Source: a virus
Reading direction: 5' to 3' (one strand)
IMG/VR virus record: IMGVR_UViG_3300017763_000054
Location: 1-38,146 of that record
DNA length: 38,146 bases
Shown here one piece after another: positions 19,679-36,225 of this stretch (position 1 is its first letter; every line of letters starts with the position of its first letter). The notes under the pieces were generated by a model. It was not told where the DNA came from. It searched no databases and saw only the letters and a list, made by a program, of their open reading frames with translations. The position numbers and the translations under genes were made by a program.

Positions 19679-22600
19679 TTAAACTGGTTCGGCTGGAAGT
19701 AGGGCTTCCTCTATTTCTCTAATCCAAACTCCATTCCTCCAGTGAGAAGACCTTCTTGATATTTCAGTATATTGACCCCAAGGAAGCGCGGCTGGAGAAG
19801 TTGCTGGAATATTAATTACTGCACCTCCGATTGGGTGCACTGAGGTTAAACTTCGTAAGCAAGATTTTAAATTTATTGTAAAAATTCTTTTTCCAGTATT
19901 TTTACTTGTTCCATTGCTCGTGCTTTGTCCTGCATTATTGGATCTAGAGTTAGAGGTAGATGTCCCAGAACTATTAGATGTGCTGTTATTTGTACCTGAA
20001 TTAGAACTATTTCCATTAGAACTGGATGTCCCATTATTTATAGATTGAGAGGTTCCCGAGTTTGAACTTTGCGATTCACCCGTGCTATTAGATGTGCTCG
20101 TAGATGTTGAATTATTAGTGGAATTATTAGTGCTATTCGATTGACTTGTACCTTGGGACGTTGATGAGTTGTTGGATTGTACTGAGCTTTGGGACGTTGA
20201 TGAGTTGTTGGATTCGGTAATGCTATTGACGTTCGATGAGCCGTCTGAAGTGTTCTGACTGGTACTATTTCCACTAGTATTACTGGTACTAAAACCAGTA
20301 GTATTCGATGTTGAATTTACATCGTTGTTAGTAGATCCATCTGTAGTTGAATTTGTAGTTGAGTTAACAGTGCCCGAAGAACTACCATTGACGCTGTTGT
20401 TAGAGTCAACATTGCTATTAGTATTGTTATTTGCAAATGAATTAATACTGCTTGCAAAGTTTGAATTAGTATTACTTCGGTTGAAAGAGTTTCCAGAGCT
20501 GTTAGAATTATTAAAGTTATTACTAACACTATTCGTATTATTATTGCTATTGCTGTTCGCGGTTACTTGTGAATTCGATCTTGTATTGCCTTGCCTAAAG
20601 TTCTTGGTAGTTGTTACTGTTTGGCTATTTCCAAATGAGTTAACATCTGTATTTGTCTTAGACGCAATGCTCTTGAATGAATTTAGTAAAGCAGTACTAG
20701 TTTTGTCTTTAGTGTTTCTCTCCGTTGCCGAAACATAAACTGGTTTGTCAATTGCACTCTGCGTAGTCGTATTTACTTCTGTATCATTATCACCATGACT
20801 ATTTACAGTACTGTTGACATCACTAGTGCTATTATTGTGTGATGTTACTAGTGTTACACTGCTATCAGAAGTGGCATCACTATCGCTAGTTGAATCTCCA
20901 AATGAAGTTGTTTCACTAAAGCTATCTCCAGATGAGTTAACAAAACCATCACTCGTGCTCGTGCCCCTAGTAGTAATGTCACTATTTGAATTACTGTCAG
21001 CACTGGAATTATTGTTGCTAGTTCCATCTGTAGTTGAATTACCGTCAGTGGTAGTCTTGGAACGACTATGTGAATTTACAGTACTGTCTGACCGACTAAA
21101 TCCGTCAGTTATAGTGGTAGACCTGCTATTTGATATACCATCACTGGCAGTCCTACTCGTGCTTCTACTTTTACTATTTCCAGTAGTATTACTGGTACTA
21201 TTCCCAGTAGTATTACTAGTTCCGTAGGAGGTTGAAGAACTTTGGGTGTTAGAATTGGAGGTTCCGTTATTTGTAGATGTTCCAGAACTAGTGTTAGTCG
21301 AATTGTTTGTAGAGGTTCCGTTATTTGTAGATGTAGTTATAGAGGTTCCAGTAGAATTGGATGTTCCAGATGAAGATCCACTTGCTTGCCCAGAAGCAGA
21401 AGTATTGCTTTGATTTTCGGAACTGCTTACTGAATTCGTGGTGCTATTGTTGGAAGACGAGCTATTGCTAGTGTTTTCACTCCTAGAACTGCTGTTTGAA
21501 TTACTGGTGCTGGTGGAAGAACTATTGCTATTGGAAGTATTGTTGCTAGTAGAATTACTTATATTTTCGTTAATTCTTTCGCTAGTAGTAGTTATTTCTA
21601 CTGCCCCAGCAAATGGAGTATCTATAAATACTCTTTCATTAACTCCCGCTTCGTCACTGGGTGCGCCCCAATGAAAAGTTCTTGTTGTTTTTATTTTAAG
21701 GGGCGATGTGGGTGCATTTATATAATTTGCAACCGCAACTGGGGATTCGGTTCCGACAACTACAACGGATTTTAACTGAGATGGGAAGTTAACATTTCTT
21801 CTATCATACCATACTTGTTGCGCTATTGCATCCGCACTTGCCTTTGTTGCAGTAAACTTTACAGAACTAAAAGAATTGATGGGTTCAACCTGAACACTTT
21901 CTGTTGCCCCAACGGATCCCGTTGCTTCGCTGGGCGAAACTACTTGTCTTTGAATGGGTAAACCAACTCCGTATCTGGAGTCTATTTCAAATATTTGTGT
22001 AGCTGGAAAGGAAGCGGACTCCAGCCTTATAAATGTTTGTATGGATTTTTTAATTAATCCATCGTTATCAAGTTCTTCTTTTTGTAATAAAAAGCTTTGA
22101 CCGCTTACGGTAATATTTGTAGTTCCAATTGTCCCCCTTGTGATTGAGCTAGAACTGAGTTCTGTTTTTACGACATTGGTAAGCTCACCATCCTCTGTTA
22201 CAAATACCTCAAAATCATCTACCTCAAAGGTGTAAGAAATAGACTGCAATCCGTTAAAGTTTTGAGTAACTTGGTTAACTAATTTGTGATTTGCTGTTAC
22301 TTGGCTTAACTCGCTTGCTACTAAACTCTCAGATAAACCCAGAGCCGTAACTACGACTTGCTGAACACCACCAACTTTTGGGGTTTCTAAATTTAAAATA
22401 CCTTTTTCGGCAAAAACTTGAGTTAATTCAGAAAAGGCTCCGTTGTCCTCTATTTTTGAAGAAGCCAAAACTAGGCTTCCAGAAGCAGTGGTTCCCACTA
22501 CACCAGATGAAGTGGTTCCCGTTTTTGCTCTAAAAACCTTGGTAACTGTTTTTAATCCGTTTTGCTCAGTGAGTTCAACATCGGCATCAATTTGAACAAA

Positions 22601-22903
22601 GGATCCAGTCAGTGTTTCGTAAGTTTTTACAAGAACAGGATTATCCGCATTGGCTTGTTGGTTAAATCTATTGTCAACCTCTACGGATATCAATCGACAA
22701 TCTGTATAACCCTGACCAACTATTTGTTCTCCAGTTGTGTCCAAGTCACCAAAGTCCCCCATCAGGGAACCCAAGTTGGTGTTATCTACATCTTCTCTGG
22801 TAAATTTTTGAAACCTACGAATGACCCTAATTCTATTGTTATAGAGTTTTGTTATTTCTGGTATTTCACCCTTTTGATGTATATTGCCGTTTCCTAAACT
22901 CAT
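19679..22903 (-). CDS. Giant Ser/Thr/Asn-rich virion protein
   Basis: The 1074-residue protein has an ordinary N-terminal domain (about residues 1-440, beta-rich with many Thr and Val). It is followed by roughly 550 residues made mostly of Ser, Asn, Thr and Gly, then a short compact C-terminus ending ALLPAEPV. The low-complexity part is split by a normal segment (about residues 705-770). Short repeats such as SNSTSNNTSNSNSSS are typical of a flexible or beta-helical spacer, as in some adhesins and fibres. The gene stop lies directly before the 454-residue protein gene, so the two may be coupled. A tail-fibre or surface role is most likely. Confidence 0.7.
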   Translation of the reverse strand: MSLGNGNIHQKGEIPEITKLYNNRIRVIRRFQKFTREDVDNTNLGSLMGDFGDLDTTGEQIVGQGYTDCRLISVEVDNRFNQQANADNPVLVKTYETLTGSFVQIDADVELTEQNGLKTVTKVFRAKTGTTSSGVVGTTASGSLVLASSKIEDNGAFSELTQVFAEKGILNLETPKVGGVQQVVVTALGLSESLVASELSQVTANHKLVNQVTQNFNGLQSISYTFEVDDFEVFVTEDGELTNVVKTELSSSSITRGTIGTTNITVSGQSFLLQKEELDNDGLIKKSIQTFIRLESASFPATQIFEIDSRYGVGLPIQRQVVSPSEATGSVGATESVQVEPINSFSSVKFTATKASADAIAQQVWYDRRNVNFPSQLKSVVVVGTESPVAVANYINAPTSPLKIKTTRTFHWGAPSDEAGVNERVFIDTPFAGAVEITTTSERINENISNSTSNNTSNSNSSSTSTSNSNSSSRSENTSNSSSSNNSTTNSVSSSENQSNTSASGQASGSSSGTSNSTGTSITTSTNNGTSTNNSTNTSSGTSTNNGTSNSNTQSSSTSYGTSNTTGNSTSNTTGNSKSRSTSRTASDGISNSRSTTITDGFSRSDSTVNSHSRSKTTTDGNSTTDGTSNNNSSADSNSNSDITTRGTSTSDGFVNSSGDSFSETTSFGDSTSDSDATSDSSVTLVTSHNNSTSDVNSTVNSHGDNDTEVNTTTQSAIDKPVYVSATERNTKDKTSTALLNSFKSIASKTNTDVNSFGNSQTVTTTKNFRQGNTRSNSQVTANSNSNNNTNSVSNNFNNSNSSGNSFNRSNTNSNFASSINSFANNNTNSNVDSNNSVNGSSSGTVNSTTNSTTDGSTNNDVNSTSNTTGFSTSNTSGNSTSQNTSDGSSNVNSITESNNSSTSQSSVQSNNSSTSQGTSQSNSTNNSTNNSTSTSTSNSTGESQSSNSGTSQSINNGTSSSNGNSSNSGTNNSTSNSSGTSTSNSRSNNAGQSTSNGTSKNTGKRIFTINLKSCLRSLTSVHPIGGAVINIPATSPAALPWGQYTEISRRSSHWRNGVWIREIEEALLPAEPV
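20153..20214 (-). repeat. Exact 36-bp tandem repeat within low-complexity coding region
   Basis: A 26-base sequence beginning TTGGGACGTTGATGAG and ending GTTGGATT occurs at 20153 and again at 20189, a 36-base period. It encodes a 12-residue repeat of Ser/Asn/Thr. Such exact copies suggest recent duplication and a region prone to length change. Confidence 0.75.
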
Positions 22904-33361: not shown

Positions 33362-33740
33362 GTTGATAAATTATTTCATGCCTATAAAAATCTTCTCCAC
33401 CCTTATTTATTACTTGGGCTTTAAATATTAAGTTTTTCCTCATTAACCCCCTGTGTGTGTGGGGAACATTAACCCTAACTTTCCTAACGGGTTTTTCTAG
33501 TAATTTGCAATACCAGAACAGTGGATTTGGCATTGGATCCAAAACTTGAACTCTAACAAACTTTGGCTCAAGTATCTCGTCGTCCCTTTTTTCAAAATAC
33601 TGGTTGATCTTCGATACTCCAAGATCTGATATTTCTCTGGTTTTTGTGCAGTAGTCTTCATCACTGCACATTTCTTTGCGTATCTTACCTATTTGCATGG
33701 GAGTAACCCCGTATTTTTCTGCTAATTCTTTTGCTTTCAT
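33321..33740 (-). CDS. Helix-turn-helix protein next to large terminase
   Basis: The 139-residue protein opens with KELAEKYGVTPMQIGKIRKE, a clear helix-turn-helix for DNA binding. The rest is beta-rich (KFVRVQVLDPMPNPLFWYCK) and ends with basic residues. A strong AGGAGG precedes the ATG. Its stop is in the downstream small gene and its start overlaps the large terminase stop by one base. It could be a late-gene regulator or a packaging accessory. Confidence 0.65.
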   Translation of the reverse strand: MKAKELAEKYGVTPMQIGKIRKEMCSDEDYCTKTREISDLGVSKINQYFEKRDDEILEPKFVRVQVLDPMPNPLFWYCKLLEKPVRKVRVNVPHTHRGLMRKNLIFKAQVINKGGEDFYRHEIIYQREIIRQERIKKVY

Positions 33741-35389
33741 TAATATCCTCCTGTTAATCGAACTTGATCAAAGTCAGCGTCCGTGTAGTGTATTGGTCCA
33801 TCTCCAGCGTTTGCCATTCGCAAATACCTAATTAAATCAAAGAAATCCTTGAGTGCTTCGTCGGATTTTCCCTGAGCATTGTAGTTTATAAGACTGTCGA
33901 TTAAATTTTCACAGGATTCGTGTATAAAGCACTGGGGTTGATTTGCATCATCCAGTTCGTAGTTTGGATTATAAGAAAACCAATCATCAAGTGCCTGAAT
34001 CCCTACCACCTCTCTACGCCCGTCCGAGGGAACAAAATCATACCCGAACTCTGAAAAAGAAGCAAATAAGTCTAAGTTGTTTTCATTTTCCCTAGCAAAA
34101 TACCTAGAGTCCCCTATGCGCTCAAAGACTTCAATTTCCAATTCTTCTTCAATTTCATCAAATAAAGCGCAGTATCCCTGTACGTCGTATCCTATTTTTT
34201 TGGCGGCTGGACCGTATTTCCACTTCTCTCCAAAAAGTGCCCACTCACCGTATTGAGATCTTTCTGGGAATTCCTTGCGGATAAAAACTTTGCCCTGTGC
34301 ATTAACCGAAGCCCAAATAGCAGAGAAGTTCCTTGCTCCCGCGGGGTCAACCACTTGGTAGTGCGTAAAGTCATCCCCAGTAATATCTGGAAAAGTCCAT
34401 CCCTCTGAATTCTCTTCTTCTCCTAGAACTTGAACTTCCGTGGAAAACAGGGGTAGGAGTGAAGTAATGCTTTTGACTGGGATCCCGTATGCGCGGACCA
34501 TGATTTCCTCGTCTGGGCGGTCTATTAAGTCCTTTTTGATACGCTCGTATCCCCCAAAGGGGTTTTCATCTGAGTGCAGGTAAACAACAGCGGCATCTCT
34601 GTGGGGTGCATACTGGACTACGGGAACATCTTCCCCCCTTAGGAGTTCTGCGGGTTTTGTAGCCAGTGTTCTCGCATTTTTCTGGTATTCAGCCACGAAG
34701 GGTGTAAAGCCATCGATGGGCGTAAAACCCAATAGCATTTTGGAGTTTCGGGTAGCTAGTCGAAAGCGCAGTGTATTTACTAGTGCGGCATCCCCTAGAT
34801 ACTCGTCAAGCCAACTACCTATGTTTAGGTCTGGATTGCCCTTGAAGCCAAACTCAAAGCCCTCTAGGATGGTCTGGTTATTTGAAAACTGGGTGTAAGT
34901 CTTAAAATCAACTCGGGTTCTGGTGTCTGGAAAGATAAAGCTACTACCCGTGAATCCATTCTGCATAGAGAAGTTAATGTAACCCTCTATGCTCTTGGTC
35001 TTCTTCTTGAACTCCTTGGGCATCATTTCCCATATGGCGGCTTGTTGAACCTTAACTGAGGTGTCTGCATTTTGGCTAAAGCAAACTATATGCCCGTCTG
35101 GGTTATTGGTGACGGCTTCCATTACGAGCTTTGCGCACCCCGTTGTTTTGCCTGATCTGTTTCCACCCAGAGCCAGAACTTCGTTGTATTCCTTTAATCC
35201 TTCTCTAATCCTCCCCCAGCCCTCTAAGTCAAACCCCTGACGAAGGGGATCCTCCTGTGATGCTCGTATAAGCCCCTCACGCACCCTATGAAGCTCTTGA
35301 AGGGCATTGGGGTCACTTTCCCCTAATAGGACGATTTCCTCGTCTGTAGGGGCTTCTATGAGCGGATGTGGGGTAAAGGTGAGTTCCAT
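33740..35389 (-). CDS. terL: Large terminase subunit
   Basis: The 549-residue protein has a Walker A GGNRSGKT at 75-82, a Walker B ending in LDE (D195, E196), and a C-terminal RNase H-like nuclease region with VVDPAG (around 345), a middle acid, and DFFDLIRYL near the end. The motor translocates DNA into the prohead and the nuclease cuts the concatemer. It is preceded by the sulfotransferase and small genes rather than directly by the small terminase, which is unusual. Length is typical. Confidence 0.9.
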   Translation of the reverse strand: MELTFTPHPLIEAPTDEEIVLLGESDPNALQELHRVREGLIRASQEDPLRQGFDLEGWGRIREGLKEYNEVLALGGNRSGKTTGCAKLVMEAVTNNPDGHIVCFSQNADTSVKVQQAAIWEMMPKEFKKKTKSIEGYINFSMQNGFTGSSFIFPDTRTRVDFKTYTQFSNNQTILEGFEFGFKGNPDLNIGSWLDEYLGDAALVNTLRFRLATRNSKMLLGFTPIDGFTPFVAEYQKNARTLATKPAELLRGEDVPVVQYAPHRDAAVVYLHSDENPFGGYERIKKDLIDRPDEEIMVRAYGIPVKSITSLLPLFSTEVQVLGEEENSEGWTFPDITGDDFTHYQVVDPAGARNFSAIWASVNAQGKVFIRKEFPERSQYGEWALFGEKWKYGPAAKKIGYDVQGYCALFDEIEEELEIEVFERIGDSRYFARENENNLDLFASFSEFGYDFVPSDGRREVVGIQALDDWFSYNPNYELDDANQPQCFIHESCENLIDSLINYNAQGKSDEALKDFFDLIRYLRMANAGDGPIHYTDADFDQVRLTGGY

Positions 35390-35418
35390 TATTCTTTTTC
35401 TAGCTAAAAACCCTTATA

Positions 35419-36027
35419 TTACTCATAATTCAATTTTATAAAATCATCTTTATACAGGGATTTAATTATTTCTTTTGTTTTATCCGTATGCAAGTGTTCA
35501 TAATTTGAATCAATAAAGTTTCCTCTATTTTTATGGGGTAATTTAAAATCTTCAGAAAATCCCATTTCGGAATATATTTTAGAATTATCTTTTTCTAGCT
35601 TAAGGTATGTTACGTTATATTTTTTTGAATCAGCCCAAGTTGTTTGAAGAAAATAAAACCGAGATTGTCCCCTTAAGAAATTGTTTGGAAAAAGAAGATC
35701 ATTCTTACCAATTAAATTTTCCACAAAATTCTCAAATTTTATATTATCCATTGATCCTTGTCTTTTTTTAGACATTGCCTTCTGGTGCATAAATGCCGAA
35801 GGGACTCTTGTCATGGGGTTTCTAGCTGTTTGATATATTTTCCAATTTTTTATATCTTTAATTGAATAAAAATCAATGGCTTCATCGATATTCATATGAA
35901 CGACTGGTGGTCGGGGATATTCAGGGCGTTCGTAACCGTAAAGTGGTTCTTCAAAAAAACTCCTTAAAGAAGTACTCCCAGTTTTAGGTGGAAACAATAT
36001 AAGTTTTTTGTCTTTTTTATTTATCAT
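35419..36027 (-). CDS. Sulfotransferase family protein between terminase genes
   Basis: The 202-residue protein has the two PAPS-binding signatures of sulfotransferases: PPKTGSTS at 13-20 (5'-phosphosulfate loop) and ARNPMTRVPSAF at 68-79 (3'-phosphate site). The C-terminus DDFIKLNY matches the family end. Such enzymes move sulfate from PAPS to sugars, lipids or protein. The gene is far more AT-rich (22 and 27% GC in two 60-base lines) than the large terminase (48% in one line), suggesting it was acquired. The start directly follows the upstream stop (TAAATG) with GGAGG nearby. The target is unknown; host surface or virion modification is possible. Confidence 0.8.
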   Translation of the reverse strand: MINKKDKKLILFPPKTGSTSLRSFFEEPLYGYERPEYPRPPVVHMNIDEAIDFYSIKDIKNWKIYQTARNPMTRVPSAFMHQKAMSKKRQGSMDNIKFENFVENLIGKNDLLFPNNFLRGQSRFYFLQTTWADSKKYNVTYLKLEKDNSKIYSEMGFSEDFKLPHKNRGNFIDSNYEHLHTDKTKEIIKSLYKDDFIKLNYE

Positions 36028-36225
36028 TTAATCTTCTTCCTCCCACAGAACTTCTACATTATCATCTCTAAAATCCAAGGATGCTTCCCTTAACAGCATT
36101 CTGGCTACGGAAACCGTCGTGTACTCGGACTGAACTTCGCCTTCTTCATCTAGCACTATTATACAGTAATTAGGATAATGTTCACCAAGTATTTCTTTTA
36201 GTTTAGCAAGGGTTTCTTGGTCCAT
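36028..36225 (-). CDS. Small acidic hypothetical protein
   Basis: The 65-residue acidic protein (LAKLKEILGEHYPNYCIIVL then LDEEGEVQSEYTTVSVARML) overlaps the small terminase gene by 23 bases and is followed at once by the sulfotransferase start. It has an alternating helix-strand look and no recognised family. Strong coupling on both sides supports it. Confidence 0.65.
   Translation of the reverse strand: MDQETLAKLKEILGEHYPNYCIIVLDEEGEVQSEYTTVSVARMLLREASLDFRDDNVEVLWEEED

Follow-up and report, generated by a model that had tools for sequence, protein, structure and literature searches.

A compositionally foreign sulfotransferase gene in a recurrent cargo slot between phage terminase genes, very likely the surviving half of a sulfotransferase-hydroxylase cassette

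We analyzed one stretch of viral DNA, the 38,146 nucleotides of IMG/VR record IMGVR_UViG_3300017763_000054, which we call the window. On its minus strand, a TerS-like HTH gene, a 65-aa open reading frame (ORF), a sulfotransferase gene, and the gene for the terminase large subunit (terL) follow one another in this order (Table 1). A first-pass annotation made from the sequence had described an AT-rich sulfotransferase gene inserted between the terminase genes. The identification is borne out by motif, profile, and fold, and the gene has the lowest GC content of the 44 window genes tabulated. The TerS-like gene and terL do flank it, but the small ORF also lies between them. Two observations elsewhere in the window are recorded here for completeness. 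Positions 19679-22903, in the structural region, encode a 1074-aa protein that consists mostly of Asn/Ser/Thr repeats and has no PHROG match, and positions 3-2234 hold part of an AAA+ ATPase and after it a 503-aa VWA/CobT-type-looking partner, which is unusual for a 38-kb phage.

Table 1. Features of the sulfotransferase locus in window coordinates.
Feature	Coordinates	Strand	Details
Terminase large subunit (terL)	33740..35389	minus	Downstream border of the slot; PHROG_2, E=2.9e-12
Putative deletion scar, 3'-end remnant of a PF05118 hydroxylase gene	35390..35418	minus	24-nt core match at the homologous place
Sulfotransferase gene	35419..36027	minus	202 aa, ATG start, frame intact; minimal cytosolic type without a visible hydrophobic leader
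3'-phosphate-binding (3'-PB-type) motif	35797..35823	minus	RNPMTRVPS, aa 69-77; invariant residues in 7 homologues
His44 codon, candidate general base	35896..35898	minus	Between the two PAPS motifs; invariant in 7 homologues
5'-phosphosulfate-binding (5'-PSB-type) motif	35968..35991	minus	PPKTGSTS, aa 13-20; invariant residues in 7 homologues
65-aa ORF	36028..36225	minus	No family; stop codon directly abuts the sulfotransferase ATG
TerS-like HTH protein, 195 aa	36203..36790	minus	Borders the slot upstream; assigned from position and from weak profile matches to HTH proteins and terminase small subunits

Both PAPS-binding motifs reported by the first pass are present and are kept in all seven homologues, which are about 39-56% identical to the window protein. 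In the alignment of these seven, the invariant residues are P13, P14, K15, T16, G17, and S20 of the first motif and R69, N70, P71, R74, and S77 of the second, with R69 and S77 about eight residues apart. By analogy with HS2ST and HS6ST, His44 is a candidate catalytic base. The window protein and its homologues match PHROG_3347 (galactose-3-O-sulfotransferase) over their full length and fall in the same length class (~219 positions), but the scores are weak, from E=1.3e-8 for the window protein (aa 4-200 to profile positions 7-214 of 219) to 7e-4 for L003. Pfam Sulfotransfer_2 (PF03567), the family of heparan sulfate and carbohydrate sulfotransferases, shares the PAPS motifs, C-terminal profile coverage, and the best fold match. 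The window protein differs in being shorter and cytosolic, and it scores 21.0 bits (E=4e-4), 1 bit under the gathering score of 22; on the same scale, L011 reaches 24.5 bits, L003 reaches 20.3 bits, and L002 has no match, which places the protein at the border of the family.

The AlphaFold model of the protein, built on the seven-sequence alignment, is of moderate confidence (pLDDT 77.7). Its best VIA-align match is 5t03, a heparan sulfate 6-O-sulfotransferase (HS6ST; Z 9.5, rmsd 4.1, 174 residues), and all of the top 50 PDB rows are sulfotransferases (Z 8.1-9.5), so the PAPS-binding fold is retained rather than lost. Cytosolic SULTs tie with HS6ST (Z 9.4 vs. 9.5), so that the fold, while it establishes the superfamily, gives no preference to a carbohydrate acceptor. 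The best-scoring BFVD matches include sulfotransferases from cyanophages, uncultured Caudovirales, and giant viruses. Taken together, it is highly probable that the gene encodes a sulfotransferase, and we assign it putative PAPS-dependent O-sulfotransferase activity of the carbohydrate-sulfotransferase (Sulfotransfer_2-like) kind.

Relatives of this protein are hard to reach from a single sequence. A single-sequence tblastn search of 50,697 phage records gave no match, IMG/VR pattern scans from one sulfotransferase sequence found nothing, and PDB sequence searches with the window protein returned no sulfotransferase; the homologues came through alignments and DNA motifs. Two scans of 84,980 prokaryote genomes with short conserved patterns, which distant kin can escape, found no close cellular relative. 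PADLOC likewise gave no match and no sign of a known defence family. Three motif-scan matches (L091, L096, and L097) were rejected as homologues, as they are unrelated phosphoesterase-like proteins that matched by chance.

The composition of the gene sets it apart from its surroundings. Its GC content is 29.4% (vs. 41.6%) and its GC3 is 23%, while the 44 tabulated window genes average 41.3% with a standard deviation of 4.3%. The first pass had quoted 22-27% against 48% in the terminase gene from sampled lines; the AT-richness stands, but the low side was sampled, as the 60-base lines of the gene range from 18 to 47% GC and terL has 45.9%. The sulfotransferase gene is therefore supported as compositionally foreign. 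Its homologues and the hydroxylase partner described below have 30-37% GC in contigs of 39-42% GC, a T4-like contig included, so the low GC belongs to the cassette and not just to the phage in the window.

We found at least 599 terL relatives in IMG/VR and compared the best 80 for each of two different queries. Among 114 distinct TerS-TerL intervals, 74 fall below 300 nt and contain one small ORF or none. In most near relatives, whose TerS-like proteins are 83-92% identical, the counterpart of the 65-aa ORF is the sole occupant. This sulfotransferase is found in only six intervals (window, L011/L084, L003, L002/L092, L087, and L088). Most relatives lack it, every known copy is AT-rich, and since the site is empty in most relatives, the first-pass description of an inserted gene holds, in the sense of an accessory one. 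Other ORFs fill the same site: HNH-like ORFs of 138-147 aa in L161, L165, L122, L151, and L154 (a label read from CxxC and zinc-knuckle-like sequence), an 84-aa ORF in L132 and L147, and a 204-aa ORF of PHROG_24927 in L068 (1835-2449), with similar ORFs at L129:986 and L130:1689. The position in the packaging operon, which had been called odd, is thus nothing of the kind: this phage group repeatedly uses the TerS-TerL interval as a cargo slot.

Several side observations concern this slot. The HNH-endonuclease-like ORFs are possible mobilisers of cargo at the site. The PHROG_24927 ORF is rich in His and Asp, has no Pfam match, and may be another metal-dependent oxygenase. Contig L001, from another metagenome and with a terL protein identical to that of the window, has as its position 1 the last base of the sulfotransferase gene (window 35419), and this assembly break may reflect strains with and without the gene.

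The sulfotransferase is known from eight contigs: the window, L002, L003, L011, L083, L085, L087, and L088. In six of them, all but the window and L011, its 3' end overlaps a downstream PF05118 gene by roughly 8-14 bases, and this gene encodes a partner of 193-209 aa with a conserved HxD motif and distal histidines. The L002 and L003 partners belong to Pfam Asp_Arg_Hydrox (PF05118; AspH, LpxO, OlsC, and proline hydroxylases) with 54.0 and 55.5 bits against a cutoff of 22.6 (E=2e-14 and 8e-15). In fold, the model of the L087 hydroxylase comes closest to human AspH (Z 15.2), with proline hydroxylases also among its matches. An IMG/VR-wide motif scan for the hydroxylase returned six contigs, each with the gene beside a sulfotransferase, and no orphan hydroxylase of the cassette type. 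Pairwise identities of the two proteins are correlated (r=0.93, 10 pairs).

One of the six complete cassettes lies in a very different genome. L085 is a T4-like contig with a gp32-type SSB (E=7e-118), a helicase loader (E=9e-52), PhoH, and an exonuclease, and its cassette lies outside any packaging operon. Its sulfotransferase is 36-39% identical to that of the window and its hydroxylase 45-49% identical to the other four compared; two unrelated phage types thus carry the same pair. About 2.5 kb upstream of this cassette there is a second sulfotransferase-looking ORF (L085:1419-2492, 357 aa) with a GKTGTSYIQS motif and no Pfam or PHROG match.

The window has no intact overlapping PF05118 gene and is a deletion derivative rather than a full cassette member. 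What it keeps is a 29-base stretch between the sulfotransferase gene and terL. Excluding the bases shared with the terL start leaves a 24-nt core, which matches the hydroxylase 3' end at 18 of 24 positions in L002 and 17 of 24 in L003, compared with 9-10 of 24 in seven empty-site relatives. Shuffles matched as well in 0 and 9 of 100,000 trials, respectively, and across both strands of the L002 and L003 loci the match is best at this place. Translated in the frame of the lost gene, the remnant reads KGF*LEKE*, compared with KGFWLKEE* in L002 and KGFWLGEK* in L003; a TAG stands there in place of TGG. This match points to deletion of the hydroxylase in the lineage of the window. L011 keeps no such remnant: there, the stop codon of the sulfotransferase directly overlaps the start of terL. 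Recombination between AAGGG repeats was rejected as the origin of the scar, as the hydroxylase 5' end lacks that repeat in L002 and L003. We consider it very likely that the sulfotransferase arrived as half of a sulfotransferase-hydroxylase cassette and that the hydroxylase was then lost in the window.

The sulfotransferase is more diverged than its neighbor. Between the window and L002, it is 56% identical while terL is 95% identical (dS 1.49 vs. 0.74), a gap that may stem from fast evolution or from an exchange of alleles. Pairwise dN/dS is 0.23-0.31 for the sulfotransferase, calculated for pairs among the window, L002, L003, and L011 with dS of at most 1.62 (many distant pairs were saturated), compared with 0.035-0.043 for terL. 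The one close hydroxylase pair that could be estimated, L002-L003, gave 0.095. A seven-row tree of the sulfotransferase is compatible with that of terL (p-AU 0.378), and transfer within this phage group is no more than suggested, by the patchy occurrence of the gene and its longer branches.

The first pass had called phage sulfotransferases uncommon, which applies to this subfamily but not to the class. PHROG_3347 falls in the category of moron, auxiliary metabolic gene, and host takeover, and together with cyanophage and uncultured Caudovirales entries in BFVD it marks an established accessory class. Phage-borne sulfotransferases of the same broad kind occur in cyanophages ACG-2014f and P-SSM7 (BFVD), and others have been noted in glacier-ice (PMC8290583) and estuarine (PMC12285232) viromes. 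OM43 phage genomes carry sulfotransferase genes of PF13469, a different Pfam branch of the same broad kind; the passages of that report that we read call their function unclear and mention no hydroxylase pairing (PMC10580990). Asparaginyl beta-hydroxylases have been reported in cyanophages (PMC3037559), pelagimyophages (PMC7029224), and Limnohabitans phage DC33 (PMC12195039). The DC33 enzyme (ORF8, aspartyl/asparaginyl beta-hydroxylase) resembles the cassette partner in being a PF05118 gene that directly adjoins terL in a podovirus-like genome, but it is followed by a GNAT acetyltransferase and has no sulfotransferase before it. We also observed PF05118-type genes adjoining terminase or virion genes in four differing phages, namely DC33 (L099), PfAn1 (L102), ctXG1253 (L103), and LilMcDreamy (L101). 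In two of the four, a putative acetyltransferase follows: DC33 has the order terL-AspH-GNAT and PfAn1 the order AspH-GNAT-internal virion proteins. Neither the sulfotransferase-hydroxylase pair nor its partial loss was found for phages in the open-licence literature searched by title and abstract, which argues weakly for novelty. Sulfotransferases in general are known from phages, and this subfamily is rare; the hydroxylase cassette and its partial loss are what this study adds.

The first pass had named host surface polymers, virion components, and nucleic acids as possible targets. Based on these data, we propose how the gene could act. The terminase genes and the sulfotransferase would be read through together late in infection; scans with promoter and terminator consensus sequences did no better than shuffles and gave no convincing internal promoter or terminator. 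The cytosolic enzyme would draw PAPS from the host sulfate-assimilation pool and sulfate a hydroxyl group of an envelope glycan or glycolipid precursor supplied by the host. Such a change to the cell surface could weaken the binding of phage progeny or competitors to the infected cell or to its debris. PF05118 includes the lipid hydroxylases LpxO and OlsC, which act on lipid A and ornithine lipids. An envelope acceptor is favored by this lipid-hydroxylase membership, by the carbohydrate-sulfotransferase kinship in profile and fold, and by the relaxed or diversifying evolution of the gene. Against it, none of the window proteins examined was identified as a glycosyltransferase or as the product of an LPS-synthesis gene. 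We regard a host envelope glycan or glycolipid as the best guess for the acceptor, with less than even confidence. The sulfotransferase probably does not need the product of the hydroxylase, because two lineages keep it alone. The whole account, of an accessory-slot sulfotransferase of cassette origin whose hydroxylase was deleted and which sulfates the envelope, is our best explanation, held tentatively and at slightly less than even confidence.

The main rival is a two-step tailoring of the virion, in which the hydroxylase would hydroxylate an Asp, Asn, or Pro residue of a virion protein and the sulfotransferase would sulfate that hydroxyl or one nearby, shifting the charge of the capsid or tail; in the window, just a pre-existing hydroxyl would be sulfated. 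The setting of the cassette amid late packaging and structural genes agrees with this, as do the closeness of the hydroxylase model to human AspH and the PF05118 genes beside terL or virion genes in other podoviruses (DC33, PfAn1, and ctXG1253). We nevertheless judge it rather unlikely, given that two of the eight carriers have lost the hydroxylase but kept the sulfotransferase intact and that the T4-like contig carries its cassette outside a packaging operon. A place among the packaging genes suits modification of virion or DNA just as well as that of the envelope, and both enzymes could instead tailor a modified base or a DNA-attached amino acid before packaging. A precedent of sorts comes from Mycobacterium phage LilMcDreamy, whose PF05118 gene lies between an amino-acid:DNA transferase gene (PF18724, E=2.7e-12) and TerS-TerL, although its protein is distant (32% identity over 39% of the query). 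Members of PF05118 act on proteins, amino acids, or lipids, and none of the window proteins scanned was recognised as acting in thymine or cytosine hypermodification. Both points count against hypermodification of DNA or nucleotides, which we regard as improbable even with the sulfotransferase gene adjoining the terminase gene.

The gene may also be a passenger in decay, that is, recombination-borne cargo that has lost its partner, is no longer under effective selection, and will soon be lost itself. Its patchy distribution, the deleted partner, the start of L001 exactly at the gene end (perhaps a strain difference), and a dN/dS well above that of terL would all be expected of such a gene. However, its reading frame is intact, every invariant motif residue is kept, and the pairwise dN/dS values that could be estimated lie well below 1, which makes this reading improbable as well. 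With respect to envelope sulfation, a dN/dS above that of terL is expected for a surface-modifying gene, though weak constraint may explain the high value instead.

Beyond the window, the pair may form a portable cassette in unrelated phages, in which the hydroxylase makes a hydroxyl that the sulfotransferase then sulfates, so that the window would keep the sulfating step alone. We consider this version unlikely as a whole. If true, the cassette would yield a sulfated modification (of an envelope lipid, a virion protein, or a DNA-linked group) still undescribed for phages. The recurrent pairing with an AspH/LpxO-type hydroxylase narrows the chemistry to test for phage sulfotransferases, and the natural variants with and without the hydroxylase provide a built-in comparison. 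The TerS-TerL slot of this abundant marine phage group is, moreover, a place to seek further small accessory genes.
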